Shown: positions 2,768 to 45,609 of the stretch, piece by piece
Layout of the letters: each line of letters starts with the position of its first letter
Position numbering within the stretch: position 1 is the first letter of the stretch
Assembly: GCF_000504285.1 (NCBI RefSeq)
Contig: NZ_KI632511.1
Location: forward strand, 8,724,154 to 8,788,153
Direction of reading: 5' to 3'
DNA length: 64,000 nucleotides
Source of the DNA: Actinospica robiniae DSM 44927
Lineage (GTDB): Bacteria; Actinomycetota; Actinomycetes; Streptomycetales; Catenulisporaceae
Made by a program: the position numbers and the translations under genes
The notes under the pieces: model-generated
Told to the model about the DNA's origin: nothing
Seen by the model: the letters and a program-made list of their open reading frames with translations, nothing else
Databases searched by the model: none

Positions 2768-4551
2768 AGACGCTCCAGGTCCTGCGCGGCAACGCCGCCC
2801 TGTTCCGCGAGATCTTCGGGCTGTGCTGGCGCCGCAGCCGGGTGCTGTTCCTGACCGTCTGCGCCTGCATGACCCTCGACACCTTCGCCATCGCGGCGAT
2901 CGGCGTGTGCATGCGGGCGATGGTCTCCGGCACGATCCAGTCCCGCGGCACGCTGATCGTCGTCGGCGCCGTCGGCGCTGCTCTCGGCTACGCCGCGTCG
3001 ATCACCTTCGGCGAGATCGTCTTCAGCCTGCGGATCAACCTGTGCGAGCTCGTCGCGCGCGAGCACTACGACCGGCAGATCCAGATGGCCGCGATGGGCA
3101 TCGAAGGGGTCGAGCACCTCGAGAACACCGAATACCTGGACAAGCTCACCGCGCTCTACGACCAGACCTGGGCGATCGGGCAGTCCGCCTGGAACGCGCT
3201 TGAAGCCGTCGCCCTCGTGGTGCGGCTTTTCCTCGTGCTGGGCCTGCTCGGCAGCATCAGCCCGGTACTGCTGGTCATCCTCGTCGCCGGCGTGATCCCG
3301 CTCTACTTCGAGCAGCGCGCCCGCAGCGTGATCCAAGCCGCCGAGAGCGCACGCTCACAGGACAAGCGGTTGCAACGTCGTCTGTTCGAGATCCTGACCG
3401 GCGGCGCGACCGGGAAAGAGGTGCGGGTCGCCGGAACCAGCGAGCACCTCGTCCGGCTGCAACGGGAGGCCGCCGAGCGCAGCGAGGGGATCTGGCGCCG
3501 CGCCAACCTCAATGCGGGGCTGCTCAACGCGCTCGGCTGGAGCGTCTTCGCGGCCAGCTTCGTGGCCGGACTCGCCGTCGTGGTCGTCTCCGCCGCGAAC
3601 AACCCGACCCACCTCGGCGACATCGTGCTGACCATCACCGTCGGCACCCAGCTGCGCTCGCTGGTGCAGAACGCCGTGCGGGCGTCCTCGAACACCGGCG
3701 GGTCAGGGCGCGTACTCGACCCGTACCGCTGGCTGCGCGCCTACGAGGCCGAGCACACCAGCGCGGCGACCGGCGTCGCGCCCGCCCGGCTGACCCAGGG
3801 CATCACCTTCGAGGACGTCGGTTTCAGCTACGCCAACAGCGACCGGCTCGCCCTCGACGGCATGTCCGTCACCTTGCCGGCGGGCAGCGTCGTCGCGGTC
3901 GTGGGCGAATACGGCTCGGGCAAGACCACGATCGTCAAGCTGCTGGAGAAGATGTACCGCCCGACCTCCGGGCGCATACTCATCGACGGCGTCGACCTCG
4001 CCGACATCGAGACCAGGTCGTGGCGAGGCGCGACAGCCGCCGCGTTCCAGGACTTCGGCCGCTACCACAGCACCTTCGCCCAGGGCATCGGCCTCGGCGA
4101 CCTCGAGCACCCCGAACGGTTGCCCGCCGCCATCGCCCACGCCGATGCGCAGGCGCTGGTCGACCGGCTCCCCGACGGCGTCGAGACCCAGCTCGGGCGA
4201 GCCTTCGGCGGCGTGGACCTGTCCGAGGGCCAGTGGCAGAAGCTCGCGCTCGCCCGCGCCTCGATGCGGCCGGTTCCGTTGCTGTTCGTGCTCGACGAGC
4301 CCACCGCGTCCTTGGACGCTCCGAGCGAGCACGCCATCTTCGAACGCTACATGGAACGCGCCCGCTCGATCGCTCCCGGAGGGATCACCGTCATCGTCTC
4401 CCACCGCTTCTCCACGGTCGCCGGCGCAGATCTGATACTCGTGCTCGACAAGGGCCGCCTCGTCGAGGTCGGCTCCCATGAGGAACTGCTTGCCGAATCG
4501 GCCACGTACTCCGAGCTTTTCTCCCTCCAGCAGACGGCATATACATCATAG
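2764..4551 (+). CDS. ABC exporter half-transporter, subunit 2
   Basis: Protein of 595 residues with the same membrane-domain/ATPase layout as its upstream partner. Motifs are Walker A GEYGSGKTT, signature LSEGQWQK (canonical LSGGQ with Gly to Glu at position 3), Walker B LLFVLDEPTASLD and switch His in VSHRFS. The altered signature is typical of one half of asymmetric heterodimeric exporters, where one composite ATP site hydrolyses slowly. Its GTG start overlaps the TGA stop of subunit 1, so the two are presumably made in equal amounts and pair in the membrane. The phosphotransferase gene begins only 3 bases after its stop, giving a three-gene operon. Confidence 0.87.
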   Translation: MKTLQVLRGNAALFREIFGLCWRRSRVLFLTVCACMTLDTFAIAAIGVCMRAMVSGTIQSRGTLIVVGAVGAALGYAASITFGEIVFSLRINLCELVAREHYDRQIQMAAMGIEGVEHLENTEYLDKLTALYDQTWAIGQSAWNALEAVALVVRLFLVLGLLGSISPVLLVILVAGVIPLYFEQRARSVIQAAESARSQDKRLQRRLFEILTGGATGKEVRVAGTSEHLVRLQREAAERSEGIWRRANLNAGLLNALGWSVFAASFVAGLAVVVVSAANNPTHLGDIVLTITVGTQLRSLVQNAVRASSNTGGSGRVLDPYRWLRAYEAEHTSAATGVAPARLTQGITFEDVGFSYANSDRLALDGMSVTLPAGSVVAVVGEYGSGKTTIVKLLEKMYRPTSGRILIDGVDLADIETRSWRGATAAAFQDFGRYHSTFAQGIGLGDLEHPERLPAAIAHADAQALVDRLPDGVETQLGRAFGGVDLSEGQWQKLALARASMRPVPLLFVLDEPTASLDAPSEHAIFERYMERARSIAPGGITVIVSHRFSTVAGADLILVLDKGRLVEVGSHEELLAESATYSELFSLQQTAYTS

Positions 4552-4554
4552 AAT

Positions 4555-5481
4555 GTGCACTTTATGAACGTGGTACCCGCAGGTCTGCTGGCCTTCGGCC
4601 GCTGGCAGCGCGAAGGCGAGCGCGGACGCGCCTGGATCAGCGCGCTGCCGGACACGGTGAACGAGCTGCTCGGCCGCTGGGAGTTGGAACCCGACGGCGT
4701 GGCCGGCAACGGCTACAACGGCCTCGCCCTTCCGGTGCTGCGAAAGGCCGAGCCGGGTCGGCCGCAGCGGGAGCGGTGCGTACTCAAGGTCTCCTGGCCG
4801 GAGGAGTCCGCGGCCGGCCACGAGGCGCTCGCGCTCGCCATCTGGGACGGGCACGGCGCCGTCAGGCTGCTCGCGACCTCGCCCACCGAAGGCGCGCTGC
4901 TGTTGGAGCGCGCCGAGAGCGGCAAGCCTCTGAGCAGCGGGCCGCTCGAAAAAGCAGTTCCCGCGGCCGGGCGCCTCCTGCGTCGGCTCGCCGTCCCCGC
5001 GCCCAACGGGCCGCGGCAGCTCGCCGAGGTCGCGGCAGAGATTCGCGACAACGTCCGCACCCGCTGGGAAGCGCTCGGTCGCCCCCTCGCCGAGCAGCAA
5101 ATCAGCCAGGCATGTGAGCTTGCCGACGGCCTGAGCCGCCGCACCGGCACCCTGCTGGTGAACCACGACCTGCACTACGACAACGTCCTCGCTGCCGAAC
5201 GCGAGCCGTGGCTGGCGATCGACCCGAAGGTCTACATCGGCGACCCGGAGTACCAGGCGGCGCAACTGCTCTGGGCGCGCCTCGACGAGATGGACGGCCC
5301 CCGCGAGCTCAAGGCCCACTCCGGCGCGCTGGTCGACGCCGCCGAACTCGACCCAGAGCTCACCCGCGCCTGGATCGTCGTACGCTGCGTCGACTACCGA
5401 CTCTGGGGCCTGGCCGCCGGATTCACCGAAGACCCACAACGCTGCGCAACCCTGATCGAGACCTTCGCCCCCACGTTCTAG
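4555..5481 (+). CDS. APH(6)/streptomycin 6-kinase-type phosphotransferase
   Basis: Kinase-like phosphotransferase of about 308 residues (or 305 from the ATG at 4564). The catalytic segment NHDLHYDNVLA and the metal-binding AIDPKVYIGDPEY followed by QLLW are hallmarks of the APH(6)/hydroxyurea-kinase family, which phosphorylates aminoglycosides such as streptomycin. ATP-binding Lys is likely in CVLKVSWPEE. The gene starts 3 bases after the second ABC subunit, so export and modification are co-expressed, a common self-resistance arrangement. No aminoglycoside biosynthetic genes are in the window, so the natural substrate cannot be named. Confidence 0.85.
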   Translation: MHFMNVVPAGLLAFGRWQREGERGRAWISALPDTVNELLGRWELEPDGVAGNGYNGLALPVLRKAEPGRPQRERCVLKVSWPEESAAGHEALALAIWDGHGAVRLLATSPTEGALLLERAESGKPLSSGPLEKAVPAAGRLLRRLAVPAPNGPRQLAEVAAEIRDNVRTRWEALGRPLAEQQISQACELADGLSRRTGTLLVNHDLHYDNVLAAEREPWLAIDPKVYIGDPEYQAAQLLWARLDEMDGPRELKAHSGALVDAAELDPELTRAWIVVRCVDYRLWGLAAGFTEDPQRCATLIETFAPTF

Positions 5482-5552
5482 CGTGATCCGGATCCTCCGG
5501 TCGCGCAGGCGATGCGTGCAGCGCGTCTTAGCCTGCGTGGGAGGATTCGGCT

Positions 5553-6284
5553 GTGGACATAGTGCGTGCGGCGCGGCTGGAGGACGGGGCGTGCCGGCAC
5601 ATGCTGGCCTGGCGCGCGGGCCCGGGATGGCGGATGGTCAGCTCGTCAGTCCTCGGCGGCGGCCTCGGCGAGCGCGAATGGGTGCTCAACGCGCAGGTCC
5701 GAGCCGGCTACGACCGGATGGATCCGGAAGCACATCTCCGAGAACTGGCATCCGGGCTGGACCTGAGAGGACCGGGCGTCGGCCTGATGACGGCCGCCTC
5801 GGTCGACGCGTTCGTCCACGCCGCCGACGACGAGGTCGAAGCGGTCGTGACGGCCGGCCTCGGCGTGCCGACCTGGGCCGCGGCCCCCGACCACGTGCCC
5901 GCGCCGTACCGCCCGGGCACGATCAACATCATCGCCGCCGTCCCTGCGGCGCTCACCGACGCGGCCCTGATCAACTGCATCGGCACCGCGACCGAGGCGA
6001 AGGTCCAAGCCCTACTCGACGCAGGCTACGACTGCTCCGGCACCCCCTCCGACGCCGTGTGCATCGCCGCCCGCACGGCCGCAGCGGCGGCCGGAGCGCA
6101 CCCCGAACCCTTCGGCGGACCCCGTTCGCGTTGGGGCGCACGACTGGCACGCGCGGTATACACGGCCGTATACCAATCCGCATCAGAGGACGCGGCTCGC
6201 CGCGCGCACGGCGAGCCCGCCGTTCACGCGGAGACCCTCCAAGCCTGCACGGCGCCGCCGCTCGAGACCGTGCGGATCAGTTAG
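5553..6284 (+). CDS. cbiZ: adenosylcobinamide amidohydrolase, CbiZ family
   Basis: About 243 residues. The core GTINIIAAVPAALTDAAL followed by ATEAKVQAL and SGTPSDAVCIA is the conserved block of CbiZ. CbiZ hydrolyses adenosylcobinamide to adenosylcobyric acid during cobinamide salvage toward coenzyme B12. The GTG start is supported by GGGAGG about 9 bases upstream. Only 71 bases separate it from the phosphotransferase and no cobalamin riboswitch fits there. It is an isolated copy with no other cob/cbi genes nearby. Its stop is followed directly by a short inverted repeat and then by element 1. Confidence 0.85.
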   Translation: MDIVRAARLEDGACRHMLAWRAGPGWRMVSSSVLGGGLGEREWVLNAQVRAGYDRMDPEAHLRELASGLDLRGPGVGLMTAASVDAFVHAADDEVEAVVTAGLGVPTWAAAPDHVPAPYRPGTINIIAAVPAALTDAALINCIGTATEAKVQALLDAGYDCSGTPSDAVCIAARTAAAAAGAHPEPFGGPRSRWGARLARAVYTAVYQSASEDAARRAHGEPAVHAETLQACTAPPLETVRIS

Positions 6285-6287
6285 ATA

Positions 6288-6303
6288 GCAATCTATTGAT
6301 TGC
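6288..6303. repeat. short inverted repeat after cbiZ
   Basis: GCAATC-TATT-GATTGC, 6-bp arms with a 4-base loop, begins 4 bases after the cbiZ stop. It is too AT-rich and short to be a strong terminator. The GCAATCT word recurs at about 6651 and 6665 inside element 1. Confidence 0.35.
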
Positions 6304-6319
6304 CTCTCTGCAGGTCGGC

Positions 6320-6623
6320 GGGAGGATCAAAGTCAAAGGCGCCGCCGGCGGGCCCTCCGCCGAGGGGTGGGCGTTGTCGGGCTGGGGTGTCGTGGGTGGT
6401 CGGGTTGGTGGGGGTGGGGTTCGGCGGGGGGTTCTCGGCGTCGGGCACCCGGGGGCTATCAGCGTTGTGGCGGGGGTGCAACCGGCGGTGGTCTGGGTGG
6501 GCTGTCGCAGGATTTCGTTCTCGCCGGTTGCGCCCCCGCCACAACGCTGATCGTGCTGCGCATGCCCGACGCCGAGAACCCCCCGCCTCAGGGCAGGATC
6601 CTGCGCTCGCGCCCGGGCGGGTG
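6320..6623 (+). repeat. left inverted arm of element 1
   Basis: About 304 bp, matched in reverse complement by 8088-8391. It begins GGGAGGATCAAAGTCAAAGG and ends near GCGGGTG. By eye the arms differ at about six positions, so they are either recent or kept identical by gene conversion. No protein-coding signal is seen; the open frames here are GC-rich artefacts. Confidence 0.85.
6424..6587. repeat. nested hairpin inside the left arm
   Basis: Outer stem GGGGTTCTCGGCGTCGGGCA pairs with TGCCCGACGCCGAGAACCCC. Inner stem 6458-6487 (contains CAGCGTTGTGGCGGGGGTGC) pairs with 6522-6551. The apical loop of about 34 bases lies between. The stem is long enough to extrude as a cruciform or fold in RNA. 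Confidence 0.8.
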
Positions 6624-6714
6624 CTCGTCTCGGATACCGCGAGCCGGACGGCAATCTCTTAGCGCAATCTCAGACTATTTGCCCAGATTCGCATCCTTTG
6701 TCACGGCAGACCCA

Positions 6715-6720
6715 TATACT
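6715..6720 (+). promoter_or_regulatory. -10-like element of the HNH gene
   Basis: TATACT, 42 bases before the GTG start, preceded by CCTTTGTCACGG. A similar string (CTTTTGTCGGTGG, then TAGTATCGAAG) occurs in element 2 at 44186-44216, which suggests a conserved promoter region in both elements. Confidence 0.4.
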
Positions 6721-6761
6721 TGAAGTACGGGGACGGATACGAAGAGCAATGGGGGCGGGAT

Positions 6762-7988
6762 GTGACCAAGGGGATCAAGAACACAGCGGCCGGAGATCCG
6801 GCGGCGCCGAGTGAGACTGAGATCGATTCGCAGATCGACACTGCCGCGTGGCAGGTACTCCAGCGAGCGCGGGCCGCAGATACGGGTGACCGTGGAGCCG
6901 GCGAGGAGGTGCTGCGGGACGCGGCGCGGATCGCCCGAAGCGTGCAGGCGTACCAGGGTCTGCTGCTGATGATGCTCGCCCAGGCCCAACGCCTCGGCGC
7001 GGTGCCCGGCGGCCTCGACACGTGGATCGCGACGCACCTCGACGTCACCGGCGGCACCGCCATCGGGATCATGAAGCAGGCCAAAGCGCTCGGCACGGAT
7101 CCGCAGCTGACCGCGCCGCTGGCCTCCGGCAAGCTCGGTGCGGCCACGATCAGTGCCCTGACCCGCACCGCCCACGCCGTACGTCACGAAGATGAGCAGA
7201 CCCGGGCCAAGGCGATGGCCGAGACCCTCGAAGTCGCCTCCCGCAACGGTGCGGACCGGGCGAAGCGGCACGTGCAGGTGCTCGAGGAGACGATCAATCC
7301 GGGCCGAGCCGGGCAGCACCTGGCGAAGGCGCGCGAACGCAGTTTTCTCAAGGTCAGCTCGACCGAGTCCGGGATGTGCCGCATCGAAGGCCTCCTCGAC
7401 CCCGAACGCGCCACGATCTTCCGCGCCGTGATCGACCAGACCGTCTCCGCATTCCTCCGCGCCCGCCAATACGACCACACCGAGCTCGTGCCCGAAGACG
7501 TGCGCACCACCGAGCAACTCCAGGCCGAAGCTCTCGTCCGGATGGCACAGAATTTCGCGGCCACCGACGCCGCCGCCCGCGAAATCGCGTTCACCCTGCC
7601 CACCCTCTACACCGCGCCCCTCGACCCGCAGCAGGATGCGGGCCTGGCCGAGTCCGTCTACGGGGACATGATCCCCCGCACGATCCTTCCCCCTCCCGGC
7701 GCGCCCGGCGCCCACCTCCTCCACTACGGCGAGGACGGCCAGCCCGTCCTCCTCGATCAGGCGATCATCGATCAGAATCCTGCAGCACGTCTGGCCAGCG
7801 CCTCGCAACGCACCGCGCTCGCTTGGCGCGACCGCGGCTGCACCTTCCTCGGCTGCCGCCGCCCGCCGACGTTCGCCCTCCACGCCCACCACAAAATTCC
7901 GCACAGCCACCACGGACCGACCGTCCTCGACAACCTCACACTCCTGTGCTCCCCCCACCACGTCCTCACCCACCACGACCAGCGCTAA
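6762..7988 (+). CDS. DUF222 / HNH endonuclease (13E12-repeat family)
   Basis: About 408 residues. An N-terminal alpha-helical DUF222 region (about residues 20-320) is followed by an HNH nuclease domain at the very C-terminus. That domain reads CTFLGC, then HAHHKIPHSHHG, DNLTLLC and HHVLTHH, giving the two zinc Cys pairs, the catalytic His and the Asn/His metal ligands. The protein ends six residues after the last HH pair, shorter than most relatives, so its tail may be trimmed. The family is the 13E12 repeat family of mycobacteria and is scattered through actinobacterial genomes; its biological role is not established. GTG at 6762 is chosen because GGGGCGGG lies just upstream; a TTG at 6720 is less likely. 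The gene is the only cargo of element 1. Confidence 0.85.
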   Translation: MTKGIKNTAAGDPAAPSETEIDSQIDTAAWQVLQRARAADTGDRGAGEEVLRDAARIARSVQAYQGLLLMMLAQAQRLGAVPGGLDTWIATHLDVTGGTAIGIMKQAKALGTDPQLTAPLASGKLGAATISALTRTAHAVRHEDEQTRAKAMAETLEVASRNGADRAKRHVQVLEETINPGRAGQHLAKARERSFLKVSSTESGMCRIEGLLDPERATIFRAVIDQTVSAFLRARQYDHTELVPEDVRTTEQLQAEALVRMAQNFAATDAAAREIAFTLPTLYTAPLDPQQDAGLAESVYGDMIPRTILPPPGAPGAHLLHYGEDGQPVLLDQAIIDQNPAARLASASQRTALAWRDRGCTFLGCRRPPTFALHAHHKIPHSHHGPTVLDNLTLLCSPHHVLTHHDQR

Positions 7989-8087
7989 GCCACCCGCCGC
8001 GGCCGCCGTAGAATCCGTGCCACTCCACCACGCGCCTACCCGAACACGGACAGGGACGAGGCAGCGGACACCGGACCGCCGAATGCC

Positions 8088-8391
8088 ACCCGCCGGGGCG
8101 CGAGCGCAGGATCCTGCCCTGAGGCGGGGGGTTCTCGGCGTCGGGCATGCGCAGCACGATCAGCGTTGTGGCGGGGGCGCAACCGGCGAGAACGAAATCC
8201 TGCGACAGCCCACCCCACACCACCGCCGGTTGCACCCCCGCCACAACGCTGATAGCCCCCGGGTGACCGACGCCGAGAACCCCCCGCCGAACCCCACCCC
8301 CACCAACCCGACCACCCACGACACCCCAACCCGACAACGCCCACCCCTCGGCGGAGGGCCCGCCAGCGGCGCCTTTGACTTTGATCTTCCC
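8088..8391 (-). repeat. right inverted arm of element 1
   Basis: Reverse complement of 6320-6623 at roughly 98 percent identity by eye. It contains the same nested hairpin (about 8124-8287). One single-base insertion occurs in the apical loop region and a T replaces G in one GTCGGGCA copy. Confidence 0.85.
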
Positions 8392-8430
8392 ATCCACCCC
8401 ATCCATCCACCCCATCCATCCATCACCCAG
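8391..8430. repeat. 13-bp tandem repeat at the outer edge of the right arm
   Basis: CATCCACCCCATC occurs twice in tandem (8391-8403, 8404-8416), followed by a partial CATCCATC copy. It abuts the right end of element 1 and could be slippage at, or a target for, the boundary. Confidence 0.7.
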
Positions 8431-8517
8431 CCGCCACCCCACCCCAACTCGCCGCAACCGACCCCGCAGCCGCCGAACAGATCACAACCGAACAGATCAC
8501 CAACTAGCGTCAGGCGA

Positions 8518-8558
8518 GGTCTCCGGCAAAAGTGGTCTCCGGCAAAAGTGATCTCCGG
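8518..8558. repeat. 16-bp tandem repeat before the uridine-kinase-like gene
   Basis: GGTCTCCGGCAAAAGT is present twice in tandem (8518-8533, 8534-8549) with a third partial copy GATCTCCGG. It ends 15 bases before the start codon of the next gene, so copy number could affect its 5' leader. Confidence 0.8.
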
Positions 8559-8573
8559 TGGAAGGATCGTCAG

Positions 8574-9212
8574 ATGCGAGCGCGACCGATCTCACCGGAC
8601 CTACTTGTCGAACACATCGCCGAGGCCGTCGACAGCCTGTCGCGGCCTCCGGGGACGCGGTTGGCGGTGGGGATCGACGGAGCCGGCCCGACCGGCACCG
8701 ACGTCCTCGCCGAGCGGCTGGTGGAGGCATTGCGGCTGCGCGGCCGGCAGGCGGTGCACGTAGCCGCCCGCGACTACCTGCGCCCGGCCTCGCTGCGGTT
8801 CGAGCTCGGGCGCCACGATCCAGACGTGTTCTATACCGAGTGGCTCGACCTCAAGGCGCTCGACCGGGAGGTCTTGGCGCCGATCGGCCCGGACGGTAAC
8901 GGCATGGTGCTGCCGCGGCTCTGGGACGCCGCGGCCGACCGGGCTTATCGCGCGCAGTACGTGCAGCTCGGTCCCGGCGGCGTTGTCCTGGTGGAGGGCT
9001 CGTTGTTGTTCGGGGTCGGCCTGGCCTTCGATCTGACGGTTCATCTATCCATGTCAGCCGCCGCGCTCGCGCGTCGCACCGCCGATGAGGACGCGTGGAC
9101 GCTGCCGGCTTACCAGCGCTACGAGGAGGAACAGCAGCCGGTGGAGACGTCCGACATCGCGGTGCGCTGCGACGATCCGCGCCACCCGGCGATCGTCACG
9201 CGCGACGAGTGA
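8574..9212 (+). CDS. uridine-kinase-like P-loop protein with degenerate Walker A
   Basis: About 212 residues resembling actinobacterial uridine kinase/phosphoribulokinase-type NTPases. The order is an N-terminal nucleotide-binding strand, then the lid-like YLRPASLRFE region, VLVEGSLLF, and a C-terminal acidic tail. The P-loop position reads GIDGAGPTGTD (residues 33-43) where relatives have G-x-x-G-x-GKT: the catalytic Lys is replaced by Thr and the following Thr by Asp. Unless another residue substitutes, ATP phosphotransfer should be weak or absent. ATG at 8574 is preferred because GGAAGG precedes it; a GTG at 8532 would extend into the tandem repeat. Function unknown. Confidence 0.65.
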   Translation: MRARPISPDLLVEHIAEAVDSLSRPPGTRLAVGIDGAGPTGTDVLAERLVEALRLRGRQAVHVAARDYLRPASLRFELGRHDPDVFYTEWLDLKALDREVLAPIGPDGNGMVLPRLWDAAADRAYRAQYVQLGPGGVVLVEGSLLFGVGLAFDLTVHLSMSAAALARRTADEDAWTLPAYQRYEEEQQPVETSDIAVRCDDPRHPAIVTRDE

Positions 9213-9226
9213 GCCCGCAGTCGGGC

Positions 9227-10015
9227 CTAAGACCGGCGACGAGGCTTGCCGCGCTTCGGCGCCGCGGCCTTCTTGCGCGCCTCGCCGGACGGCCTTGCCG
9301 AACCTGATGCCTTAGACGTTCCCTTAGACGTTCCCTTAGACGTGGATTTAGAGGTGCCCTTGGCCGCACCCGCCCCCGCCGCCGCGTCCTGCTGCCGCCC
9401 GCCGCCGCGGGAGCTGTTCACCGTGCGTCCCCGTACGATCCCGATGAACTCCTCCACCAGGTCGGTCGTCTGCTCCTCCAGCCAGGACAGCGCGACCCGC
9501 GACTCCGGCGCGTCCGTCAGCGGCCGGTACGTCAGGTCTTTGCGGTGGTGCAGACGGGCCAGCGACTGCGGCACGACCAGCAGGCCCACCCCCGCCGCCA
9601 CCAGCTCGATCGCGTCGGCCGTGGTCTGCGGACGCTCGAGCGCGGGCCGGCCCGGGAACTCCGCCTCGGTCCAGTCAAGGCTGTCGTCGAGCGGGTGGAG
9701 CACGAGATAGTCGGCGAGGTCGGCGAGGCTCGCCTCGTCCACGGCCGCCACCTCGTGGTCCTTGGGCACGACCACCACCGCGGTCTCCGCGTACAGCGGG
9801 ATCGCGCTCAGGCCGGCCCGGTCGATCGGCAGCCGCAGCAGCGCCGCGTCCGCGCCGCCCTCGCGCAGCGTCGGCGCGGCCTCGGCCACCGGGAGCGGAA
9901 CGAGGTCGAGGGGCACGTCCGGCACCCGCTCCGCCCAGATCCGGACCCACTTGCCGGGGGTCACGCCCGGGACGTACCCGAGTCGGAATGAACCGGTCTG
10001 CTCCGTGCCTGTCAC
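9227..10015 (-). CDS. LysR-type substrate-binding-domain protein without HTH
   Basis: About 262 residues. Residues 8-200 have the periplasmic-binding-like fold of LysR effector domains (RLGYVPGVTPGKW, DAALLRLPID, VAAGVGLLVVPQSLA). The usual N-terminal helix-turn-helix is absent. The C-terminus is a Lys/Ser/Thr/Gly-rich repetitive tail (KGTSKSTSKGTSKGTSK, then KKAAAPKRGKPRRRS) that could bind nucleic acid. Because the gene is divergent from a DUF5997 gene with a 58-bp gap, an arrangement I know from Streptomyces, the two probably act together, perhaps with DUF5997 supplying DNA binding. GTG at 10015 is chosen; the longer upstream frame runs antisense through the neighbour. Confidence 0.75.
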   Translation of the reverse strand: MTGTEQTGSFRLGYVPGVTPGKWVRIWAERVPDVPLDLVPLPVAEAAPTLREGGADAALLRLPIDRAGLSAIPLYAETAVVVVPKDHEVAAVDEASLADLADYLVLHPLDDSLDWTEAEFPGRPALERPQTTADAIELVAAGVGLLVVPQSLARLHHRKDLTYRPLTDAPESRVALSWLEEQTTDLVEEFIGIVRGRTVNSSRGGGRQQDAAAGAGAAKGTSKSTSKGTSKGTSKASGSARPSGEARKKAAAPKRGKPRRRS

Positions 10016-43450: not shown

Positions 43451-43571
43451 CCGACGCGCCACCGCCGAATGCTGCTTCAATCCCGCCACACGATCCGGCC
43501 GCATAAGAGCTTCCCCCTGTCGCGCGCGATCTGCGCGACCCACATCAAAGTGTTGCTCAGAGTGGTCCTGT

Positions 43572-43941
43572 GCGGTCGCTTCGCGTCGCCTGGTTCGTCT
43601 GACCGCCCGCCCACCCGTTGCGTCGGCGGGGTGGGCTGGGGTTTCAAGATCTCGCCTCCGGCGCGGGCCCTTCCCTCGGAGAGAGAGGCCGGAGTCTGTG
43701 GGGTGGGTGTGGTTGGCGGGGCGGGCTGGGGTTCGGGGTGGTCGGGTGTCGGGGGTGTGCTCTCTCCTCGGTCGGTCCCCGGAGGCAATCAGGGACCTGC
43801 CGGGAGGTCAAGCGGCGGTGGTTTCCGCTGCTGGTGGATTGTGTATGGCGCCGCTTGACCTCCCGGCAGAACCCTGATCGGGCTTCGCCTGCCCGACCGA
43901 GGAGAGAGCCCACCCCCTGGGGGTCCGGTGCGAGCTGCGCT
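43572..43941 (+). repeat. left arm of element 2
   Basis: Matches the complement of 44627-44991. It holds the nested hairpin 43759-43910 and a conserved outer segment with GTTTCAAGATCTCGCCTCCG and GGCGCGGGCCCTT. Divergence is mostly in the middle (about 43690-43735) and the hairpin loop. Confidence 0.8.
43759..43910. repeat. nested hairpin in the left arm of element 2
   Basis: Outer stem TCTCTCCTCGGTCGG pairs with CCGACCGAGGAGAGA. Inner stem CTGCCGGGAGGTCAAGCGGC pairs with GCCGCTTGACCTCCCGGCAG. Same topology as the element 1 hairpin but with different sequence. The right arm has the matching hairpin at about 44656-44807. Confidence 0.8.
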
Positions 43942-44185
43942 CGGGCCGATTCCTGTCCCGGGGCCCGGCCGCGCTCGATGCGGAAGGATTCTGCATCACC
44001 CTGATCCGGCCATCCTGATCCTCGATCCGCGAAGGAGTCGGTGCCCGGGCCGCGCTTGCTGCTGAATCCTGCATTGCCATTCTGGGCTGCTCTTTTCTCC
44101 TCTCTTTCTTCAACGCCGGGGAACGCGCACGAGTGCCCGGAAATCTGCAGAATTTTTGCTTATTCAGTAAAGGCCGGATTCGCCA

Positions 44186-44216
44186 CTTTTGTCGGTGGTG
44201 GCGTCTAGTATCGAAG
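44186..44216 (+). promoter_or_regulatory. promoter-like segment of element 2
   Basis: CTTTTGTCGGTGG, then TCTAGTATCGAAGCATG. It resembles the segment upstream of the element 1 HNH gene (CCTTTGTCACGG then ATATACTTGAAG). An ATG lies right after it, but the frame that follows is repeats. Confidence 0.35.
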
Positions 44217-44271
44217 CATGGGGATCGGGACCTGTGTCGAGAGGGGTGGTGGACGGGGTGTGGCCGAGAGC

Positions 44272-44640
44272 GGTGCAGGAATTCCCCTCAGCGTGCGACC
44301 GGGCCACGCGATCGTGCGCACCGGGTGGATCGGACCGGGGCGATGCAGAAATCGCCCGCATCGAACGCGGCGGGCCCACGGGATTCCTGCGCGAGGTCTG
44401 GGATCGGGGTGGATCACATGAGGGCGGTACAGGATTTCACATTAGGCGCGACCCGAGCATCGACCTCTTCGCGCGGATCGATGATCGGGATGGTCGGATC
44501 AGGGTGATGCAGAATTCTCCCGCATCGGGCGCGGCTGGCCTGCGGGATTCTGCCGCGAGGTCTGGGATCGGGGTCGATCGCGCCAAGGCGATGCACGATT
44601 CAGCAGCAAGCGTGACCCGGCCTGAGCGCAGCTCGCACCG
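44272..44640 (+). repeat. degenerate tandem array inside element 2
   Basis: A word of the form GRTGCAGRAWTC recurs at about 44272, 44341, 44427, 44506 and 44591, with spacing 69 to 86. The larger 154-164-bp unit is clearest where GCGAGGTCTGGGATCGGGGT appears at 44391 and 44555. Copies in reverse orientation lie at about 43987 and 44065. No open frame stays coding-like. Confidence 0.65.
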
Positions 44641-44991
44641 TTCCCCAGGGGGTGGGCTCTCTCCTCGGTCGGGCAGGCGAAGCCCGATCAGGGTTCTGCC
44701 GGGAGGTCAAGCGGCGCGATGCAAGATCGAGCATCAGCGGAAGCTACCGCCGCTTGACCTCCCGGCAGGTTCCTGATTGCCTCCGGGGACCGACCGAGGA
44801 GAGAGAACGCCCCCGGCACCCGACCATCCCGAACCCCAGCCCGCCCCACAAACGACAGCACCCACATGAACCCGGCACTCTCTCCGAGGGAAGGGCCCGC
44901 GCCGGAGGCGAGATCTTGAAACCCCAGCCCACCCCGCCAACGCAACGGGTGGGCGGGCGGTCAGACAAAACAGGCGACGCGAAGCGGCCGC
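44627..44991 (-). repeat. right arm of element 2
   Basis: Reverse complement of the left arm. It carries the nested hairpin (about 44656-44807) and the conserved outer end (GCGACGCGAAGCGGCCGC). The loop sequence (around 44718-44745) differs from the left arm loop. Confidence 0.8.
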
Positions 44992-45063
44992 CCCACCTCT
45001 ACGACCACCCCGACCCGACAGGCCAACACGCCCGACCAGCACACAGCCGATCATCAACTCGCG

Positions 45064-45609
45064 TTACGACACGGCCTGGCCGAGCGCGGCAAGAACCATG
45101 CCCACCCGTCCGTCCAGCGGCCCGTCGAGTTCCAGGACTGCGATGTCCCCCCAGAGGCCCAACGGGTCGTCGTAGACCAGGTCCAGTAACGCGTCATCGA
45201 CCCGGAGGCGCAGCGCAGGCAGCTGCGCAGGCGGCATCACTCGTTCCGTCTCCGCGGTGACCCGCGTGATGACCAGCAGATCGAGCCCTGCGAAGGCAGG
45301 CTGCAGTGCTTCCGCCACGGCCGGGGCCTCAGGATCGGCGCCTGACGCCGTCATGTAGGCGAGATAGTCCAACGGCGTTCGGTCGAAGACGACCGCGGAG
45401 GACAGCGGCCGGGAGACCATGCTGCGCACCGAGCGCACGAGCATGGCGTGGTAGTCCTCCAGGGACGGCGGGTTCGCGAACTCGTAGCCCTCCTCCTCGA
45501 GCAGGTAATACGGTTCGTCGACCGCCACGTGACCTGGCAGATGCTCACACAGCGCCTCGACCAGCGTCGTCTTCCCCGTGCCGTGCGTGCCGGAGACACC
45601 CACTCTCAT
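45064..45609 (-). CDS. AAA/P-loop nucleoside-kinase-like ATPase (NadR-type fold)
   Basis: 181 residues. The Walker A is GTHGTGKTTLVEAL at the very N-terminus, followed by PYYLLEEEGYEF, VVFDRTPLDYLAY (DRxxxD lid/Walker B-like, as in NadR and thymidylate-kinase-like proteins) and LVITRV. Probably phosphorylates a nucleoside, ribosylnicotinamide or small molecule; substrate unassigned. ATG at 45609, SD TGGGAG upstream. It stands right outside element 2 and is divergent from the GH20 gene. Confidence 0.7.
   Translation of the reverse strand: MRVGVSGTHGTGKTTLVEALCEHLPGHVAVDEPYYLLEEEGYEFANPPSLEDYHAMLVRSVRSMVSRPLSSAVVFDRTPLDYLAYMTASGADPEAPAVAEALQPAFAGLDLLVITRVTAETERVMPPAQLPALRLRVDDALLDLVYDDPLGLWGDIAVLELDGPLDGRVGMVLAALGQAVS

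Follow-up and report, generated by a model that had tools for sequence, protein, structure and literature searches.

Nuclease genes lying between inverted copies of a palindromic repeat are known from the REP/RAYT systems, in which the gene for a REP-associated tyrosine transposase (RAYT) stands between inverted repetitive extragenic palindromic (REP) sequences and has been proposed as their source. REPs are reported to be 20-40 bp long (PMC3733652). The 13E12 repeats were among the repetitive elements recovered by a reference-free search for mobile elements (PMC10589994), and the REP13E12 repeats of mycobacteria carry a DUF222-HNH protein, are multicopy and have been reported as gene-conversion hotspots in M. 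tuberculosis (PMC13061034); the accessible parts of these two papers describe no transposition of REP13E12. Here we analyse a DUF222-HNH nuclease gene bounded by two near-identical inverted arms in Actinospica robiniae DSM 44927. It lies in a stretch of 64,000 nucleotides (contig NZ_KI632511.1, positions 8,724,154 to 8,788,153, forward strand), which as a whole is called the window below. Judged from the DNA, the best reading is that of a new transposon family in which the DUF222-HNH protein probably moves both the element that encodes it and gene-less palindromes.

The window protein has the layout of the 13E12 family, DUF222 followed by a C-terminal HNH domain, and it belongs with REP13E12 to one multicopy protein family; hairpin arms accompany this protein, and they occur at 0 of 70 DUF222 loci in 35 other genomes, a set that may not include mycobacteria. 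The initial annotation had compared the locus with REP/RAYT elements. As an analogy this stands, since both are palindromic, intergenic and present in many copies. It fails in the details: the arms here measure 300-600 bp and contain a nested hairpin of 150 nt, the target is TA, the termini are inverted repeats, and an HNH nuclease takes the place of the Y1 HUH enzyme, no HUH nuclease having been found in the element.

The window locus and its relatives in the genome

Near-identical arms of 304 bp, a nested hairpin in each and a DUF222-HNH gene as sole cargo about 100 bp from the arms had been proposed by the initial annotation, and this anatomy is borne out:

6313..6623, + strand: left arm, hairpin-rich and non-coding (inverted-repeat detection and blastn, 97.7% identity to the right arm)
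8087..8398, - strand: right arm, the left arm inverted (inverted-repeat detection and blastn)
6720..7988, + strand: gene of the DUF222-HNH nuclease (read from TTG at 6720, with GTG at 6762 as an alternative start)
6429..6581, + strand: nested hairpin, conserved, in the left arm (139.7 bits and E 8.2e-28 with covariance model R1; in the 13-sequence training set)
8129..8282, - strand: conserved nested hairpin of the right arm (covariance model R1, 135.7 bits; in the training set)

The arms align in two blocks (6313-6497 with 8214-8398, 185 nt, 96%; 6495-6623 with 8087-8215, 129 nt, 99%), and blastn of 6320-6623 against 8391-8087 gives 97.7% identity. An outer stem joins 6423-6447 to 6563-6587 (25 nt, 100%) and an inner stem 6458-6487 to 6522-6551 (30 nt, 97%), both mirrored in the right arm. 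Folded as single-stranded DNA, the left arm reaches -104.3 kcal/mol compared with -74.2 +/- 4.3 in 100 shuffles (z -7.0). Pfam recognises DUF222 (E 1.4e-16) and HNH (E 2.1e-5) in the gene, which is the only one recognised between the arms and is separated from each by 96-98 bp. An Rfam scan of window positions 5400-9400 returned five matches, all to microRNA models and far under the cut-offs, that is, no known RNA family.

The window arm, when compared by blastn with 40 stretches of the genome (a single contig of 9,918,887 bp, 9.92 Mb), was found mostly as inverted pairs. Pairing of plus and minus matches to an end profile in stretches fetched from 101 sources yielded at least 80 elements of the same design, amounting to 1.88% of the genome and counted without the window copy and loci L041, L043, L044, L045 and L072. 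As the design recurs about 80 times, the window arms are not due to chance. Fifty of the 80 are short and gene-less (1.04-1.67 kb, median 1463 bp) and largely palindromic, as seen in 16 that were aligned; seven carry DUF222-HNH, the uninterrupted ones among them measuring 2.56-2.63 kb. In our reading an autonomous element consists of a terminal YTA-NN-GCGANTTGATGATCGGC (Y, pyrimidine), a long arm with the 150-nt nested hairpin, the DUF222-HNH gene and the arm inverted, and the more numerous gene-less elements of two arms and a short centre, which makes them near-complete palindromes. DUF222-HNH is the sole gene recognised in uninterrupted elements. A conserved gene of the short elements was considered and rejected: their commonest open reading frame (ORF) occurs in only 21 of 33, and we take it as chance because its residues show that it reads through an arm.

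The outer-end consensus of the aligned pairs, YTA-NN-GCGANTTGATGATCGGCTGAGTG, lies about 150-200 bp outside an arm of the window type, so that in the main family the outer ends could be mapped, at that distance beyond the arm noted initially. The termini carry TA at both junctions. Allowing up to three mismatches, the end motif TTGATGATCGGCTGAGTG occurs 73 times forward and 79 times in reverse in the genome and its backward control 0 and 0 times; an inner motif is found 86 and 89 times, its control 2 and 2 times. The conserved terminal inverted sequences expected of a transposon are therefore present (80 pairs; 73 and 79 end motifs). Outside the right arm of the window copy, and abutting it, lie short tandem repeats (CCATCCACCCCATCCAT, window 8390-8419), where the outer end of the element may have been lost. 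A lone arm about 81% identical to the window arm, with no partner or gene seen, is found elsewhere in the genome (L046, 6048-6345, at 2.766 Mb); it is a remnant of the sub-family to which the window copy belongs.

Of the genomes scanned with R1, only that of A. robiniae holds the family in large numbers. At least 147 hairpin matches were found there among the matches listed, compared with 12 and 2 in two draft congeners (G002, the contigs of Actinospica acidithermotolerans, and G001; minimum counts), none in a complete genome of the same family (G003) and 0-1 in each of 17 further genomes. The window itself contains a second member:

43569..45071, no strand assigned: gene-less palindromic element (1503 bp; left end truncated, right end complete; end-profile matches 43569-43673 on + and 45071-44889 on -)
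43759..43909, + strand: its left arm hairpin (R1, 158.2 bits; outside the training set)
44656..44806, - strand: its right arm hairpin (R1, 157.4 bits; outside the training set)

The remaining 23 of the 80 elements are longer and contain ordinary insertion sequences (IS) where checked. Ten ORFs from nine elements above 1.7 kb were compared with Pfam: nine fall into transposase or integrase families and the tenth, picked in the wrong frame, had no match; no constant gene other than DUF222-HNH was seen in this sample. Many longer elements are linked by long near-identical stretches. Palindromic elements above 2.9 kb (e.g. L083, 3332-10464) are a sink for several IS families, which we take, partly from their Pfam names, to be Mutator/IS256, IS110, IS5-like, IS3-like, IS4, IS1380-like and integrase-core. 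In six elements (L050, L061, L096, L211, L213, L223) the arm is split at the same spot, end-profile column 123-127. An IS110-family transposase gene adjoins the split in L050 and long near-identical matches link the other five; an IS110-type element targeting the arms is probably behind it.

Movement and insertion sites

Precise ends, unrelated flanks, empty sites in two congeners and arms at all 13 DUF222-HNH loci of the genome uphold the candidate mobile element of the initial annotation, and from such sequence comparisons we regard it as almost certain that the family is mobile. Two elements far apart in the genome, L093 (3,588,192) and L206 (8,365,411), share 1451 bp at 99.3% identity; the match is co-terminal at the element borders, the flanks are unrelated and all ten differences lie within the first 145 bp. 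The DUF222-bearing elements L044 and L045 align over 2639 bp (96.3%; 99.3% in the inner 2189 bp), again between unrelated flanks, and their alignment begins exactly at TTAATGC; of the forms taken to be autonomous, theirs was copied most recently. Joined flanks of five loci were searched for in the congeners. Three matched on one flank only; the two testable loci, L202 and L203, each gave a single match across the junction in both G001 and G002, and the hairpin is absent from these stretches. Both sites are hence empty in the relatives, the opposite of what the initial annotation had named as evidence against a mobile element. The gene to the left of L202 ends with TGA in G001 and with TAA, formed with the element end, at the occupied site. 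The intergenic sequence at the empty junctions was too diverged for a base-by-base readout of the target.

The end table (53 elements) shows TA at both ends, the next base pair (Y/R) not being coupled between them; beyond YTA nothing is conserved apart from a slight bias towards pyrimidines in the adjoining base. The flanks are unrelated, and therefore the homing element that had been offered as an alternative is not supported. The NN dinucleotide after YTA is equal at both ends in 8 of the 53 (shuffle mean 3.0, P 0.0075). In the 31 cleanest elements, with TA at both ends and up to three mismatches in each, the two terminal dinucleotides are strongly coupled (mutual information 1.01 versus 0.26, reached in 0 of 1000 shuffles) but mostly different (AC/CT 7, GA/TT 6; also GA with TC), and the N after GCGA is coupled as well, less strongly. 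A target duplication longer than TA was rejected on these grounds and NN taken as element sequence; since the dinucleotides are coupled and yet equal in only 1 of 31, the element is polar despite its look-alike arms.

The elements tend to sit at gene ends. According to rough gene calls based on G+C content at third codon positions (GC3), 105 of 152 called flanking genes point towards the element (8 flanks uncalled), and the 72 elements with both genes called comprise 31 convergent, 35 tandem and 6 divergent arrangements. For open frames of at least 100 codons coming from outside, the junction TA with its next base forms the in-frame stop codon at 30 of 98 ends, compared with 8 of 254 control sites. 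A target preference or a tolerance for insertions that leave a stop codon would both give this excess.

DUF222-HNH genes, their product and the arm hairpin

A protein-only profile, blind to the arms, gave 18 DUF222-HNH matches at 13 loci of the A. robiniae genome. All 13 have arms, 12 of them on both sides and one (4366801) on the right side only; L072 is counted as two-sided, as its left end, just beyond the fetched stretch, was seen in motif searches. The proteins form four lineages that are 41-45% identical to one another; the window copy and L041 (65%) belong to the same one. At such distances the link between arms and gene does not go back to one recent duplication. Hairpin, DUF222-HNH gene and inverted hairpin recur on contig C361 of A. 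acidithermotolerans with a fifth protein lineage. The named bacterial genomes searched with the protein gave two loci only, both in A. acidithermotolerans, in a set that may omit the window's own genome.

Several further loci of these species and others deserve mention. A 3375-bp contig of G001 (L120, contig C406) has a stretch that by eye looks like a Mutator-type transposase between two inverted HNH-coding stretches, and one arm hairpin at 3207-3357; what this congener has there is a DUF222 element that has decayed or collapsed. In A. acidithermotolerans, two DUF222-HNH genes, one of which has no arm on that side, are directly preceded by 52 nt of 94% identity (L117 810-861 and L115 4029-4080), and this stretch may represent a shared promoter. 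In another genus, a DUF222 gene (L293, G225) lies between 810-bp identical inverted copies (1024-1833 and 5692-6501), possibly an IS pair.

Thirteen arms from A. robiniae and a congener, with a mean column identity of 67%, take one consensus fold with asymmetric internal loops. Of its 47 pairs, 18 change on both sides with pairing kept, a number reached by none of 500 shuffles, and 97.3% of cells are paired, compared with 87.3% in shuffled and 39-45% in slid versions. Pairing is thus conserved and sequence is not, for which selection on the folded strand would be the natural reading. Among 66 arms of the 33 complete short elements, the two arms of an element resemble each other (85.5%) no more closely than they resemble the arms of other elements (85.3%), and at 41 common biallelic sites r2 falls to 0.02-0.06 beyond 5 bp, close to the 0.016 of shuffled data. 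Short-tract gene conversion would explain this shuffling, with recurrent mutation at hot sites as the alternative. If it is conversion that unlinks arm variants beyond about 5 bp, the tracts would be extremely short.

The nuclease itself is conserved. The HNH residues H390, H391, N405, H414 and H418 are invariant in eight homologues, and the ratio of nonsynonymous to synonymous change (dN/dS) between main-family copies is 0.12-0.22 in all seven pairs. The scattered copies therefore stay functional, as expected if each codes for its own spread. For the window copy and L041 the ratio is 0.38, and for L044 and L045 it is 1.12, from too few changes to carry meaning. The proteins of the window, L041, L043, L044 and A. 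acidithermotolerans exceed the Pfam cut-offs for both domains; those of L073 and L187 match HNH only (E 0.001) and yet share 42% identity with that of the window. In DUF222-HNH no transposase, whether of the DDE, HUH, Tyr, Ser, DEDD or Cas1 class, is annotated by Pfam, NCBIfam or PADLOC, an anti-phage library had no match for three of the proteins, and no relative was found in viral contigs. Among structures in the PDB only the HNH stretch finds matches by sequence, weakly, the closest being IscB and Cas8f-HNH (E 0.013-0.43).

The possible mover and its alternatives

DUF222-HNH is the most likely mover of these elements since it is present at 13 of 13 loci, which span four lineages, and recurs in a second species, and no other constant gene was seen; we hold this with moderate confidence. 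The role of the nuclease as mover, its binding to the hairpin and the order in which the strands are processed are what we infer. The DUF222 part might recognise the arm hairpin, either extruded from the palindrome or single-stranded during replication, and the HNH part might nick or cut the element ends. The excised or copied element would then be joined to a YTAR-like TA, in many cases where a gene has its stop codon. Gene-less palindromes would be moved in trans, and the same nuclease activity could provoke gene conversion among the many arms. More tentatively, with a probability we put at just under even, DUF222-HNH could represent a new class of transposase that recognises a hairpin, inserts at TA with a preference for stop codons, serves its own and gene-less elements and leaves very short conversion tracts. 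If this were true, the arm-less DUF222-HNH genes of actinobacteria would be relatives with shorter, unrecognised sites, or domesticated forms.

Several findings weigh against the nuclease as mover. The link between nuclease and mobility is, at the level of sequence, an association. The window copy is a divergent member without a recognisable outer end of the family type, and its borders are hence not precisely placed. At its locus G001 has both flanking genes with about 3.4 kb of other DNA between them, which rules this genome out as a clean empty site for it. In A. acidithermotolerans both arms are found at only one of three DUF222-HNH loci: C210 has an arm 3' at the contig start and none 5', and C17 has none 5', its 3' side lying past the contig end. 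Contigs of the congener drafts frequently break off at arms. Outside the genus, 70 DUF222 loci in 35 genomes were surveyed (30 and 40 loci, several genomes being many-copy and four windows shortened by contig ends). At 67 no flanking inverted repeat of at least 35 nt was found, and the arm hairpin occurs at none (best E 0.17); the other three have such a repeat, one of them the 810-bp IS-like pair described above. The same test recovered the arms in 9 of 10 windows of the A. robiniae genome and at the C361 locus. Of 248 genomes sampled from the phylum, 83 have DUF222. Arms of this kind are missing at most DUF222-HNH genes, the link with them is specific to a lineage, and a role in mobility cannot be extended to the whole 13E12 family. 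DUF222 genes without arms, which the initial annotation had listed as evidence against its proposal, are thus the rule outside the genus but are not seen among the 13 DUF222-HNH loci of the A. robiniae genome.

The hairpin and protein data also have weak points. The 13 aligned hairpins include both arms of two elements as well as near-copies, and correction of one palindrome half from the other, instead of selection, could account for part of the pairing. Strict co-divergence of protein and hairpin was rejected: over five lineages the two do not diverge in parallel (r 0.20), an eight-sequence version (r 0.71, P 152/40320) owes its result to main-family copies that are nearly identical, and L043 combines a hairpin of the main type with a protein only 43-44% identical to the main type. 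The AlphaFold model, made from the window protein plus two congener proteins, is poor, with a predicted local distance difference test score (pLDDT) of 51.

Instead of the DUF222-HNH protein, another enzyme might move the elements in trans; the best candidate would be a DDE transposase of the IS630/Tc1/mariner group with specificity for TA, with DUF222-HNH as a passenger or secondary invader. IS630 elements have a CTAG target preference, and a resident IS630 copy starts with CTAG too. For ISY100 a preference for TA is reported. Elements of the IS630 type typically show TA at the two junctions and prefer YTAR-like sites; with these and their miniature inverted-repeat derivatives (MITEs) our family also shares terminal inverted repeats and gene-less members, and five DDE_3 (IS630-type) matches exist in the genome, of which one, near 8.18 Mb, has an element end on one side and an arm hairpin on the other. 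The TA/YTAR targets and the presence of such genes count against the nuclease as mover. However, the resident IS630 ends (CTAGTGCCGTATCAGGCTAC...) differ, the best sites around the five DDE_3 genes having 6-9 mismatches to the 23-base end pattern, and two IS630 copies align only across their own 1236 bp. No DDE gene is seen constant in the elements, the arms are very long and hairpin-rich, and they accompany four DUF222 lineages here and one locus in a second species. We consider an external DDE mover rather unlikely. It is less probable still that DUF222-HNH cuts arms or ends and drives homing-like gene conversion, with insertion at new sites being rare and due to other processes. The nearly free shuffling of variants among the 66 arms, the confinement of all L093/L206 differences to one end and the 87 conversion events reported for M. 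tuberculosis REP13E12 loci (PMC13061034) would fit, and HNH homing endonucleases likewise combine an HNH nuclease as sole gene with gene conversion. They act on a cognate site with homologous flanks, whereas the flanks here are unrelated; with about 80 such loci and empty sites, the family clearly does insert at new sites, and conversion accounts for shuffling but not for spread.

Finally, the arms might be genome-wide structural repeats of the REP kind, such as two-way terminators between converging genes, unlinked to HNH. The 50 gene-less elements, the 105 of 152 flanking genes pointing inwards (31 convergent, 35 tandem and 6 divergent pairs) and the stop codons at 30 of 98 junctions, compared with 8 of 254 controls, are in line with it, yet a mobile element that prefers, or is best tolerated at, such targets would also come to lie at gene ends. 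Moreover, the elements make up only 1.88% of the genome and still all 13 DUF222-HNH loci, of four lineages, lie between or beside arms, as does one in the second species, so that we give this explanation very little weight. Arms without HNH genes had also been listed initially as counter-evidence. They do exist in the 50 gene-less elements, but these share their ends with the HNH elements and at least one of them moved recently; they seem to behave as non-autonomous derivatives would. From IS200/IS605 elements and their IscB/TnpB relatives, which also have subterminal secondary structures (PMC6006769) and whose IscB is, with Cas8f-HNH, the weak best match of the HNH part, the family is set apart by a comparison of features: no TnpA Y1 gene and no RuvC domain were found in the element, and it has long terminal inverted repeats.

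In conclusion, the kinds tested, i.e. REP/RAYT, a MITE of the resident IS630 and a homing element, do not fit these elements, and we found no published description of such a family among open-licence PMC papers. Its novelty as a category would depend on the role we infer for HNH; otherwise it would be a new transposon family of a known kind. With their covarying hairpin and a length of about 1.5 kb, the gene-less palindromes offer unusual natural substrates for studies of cruciforms, gene conversion and insertion that keeps stop codons. If the nuclease is indeed the mover, HNH would join the short list of transposase chemistries, and DUF222, a common and so far unexplained family of actinobacteria, would gain a testable function.

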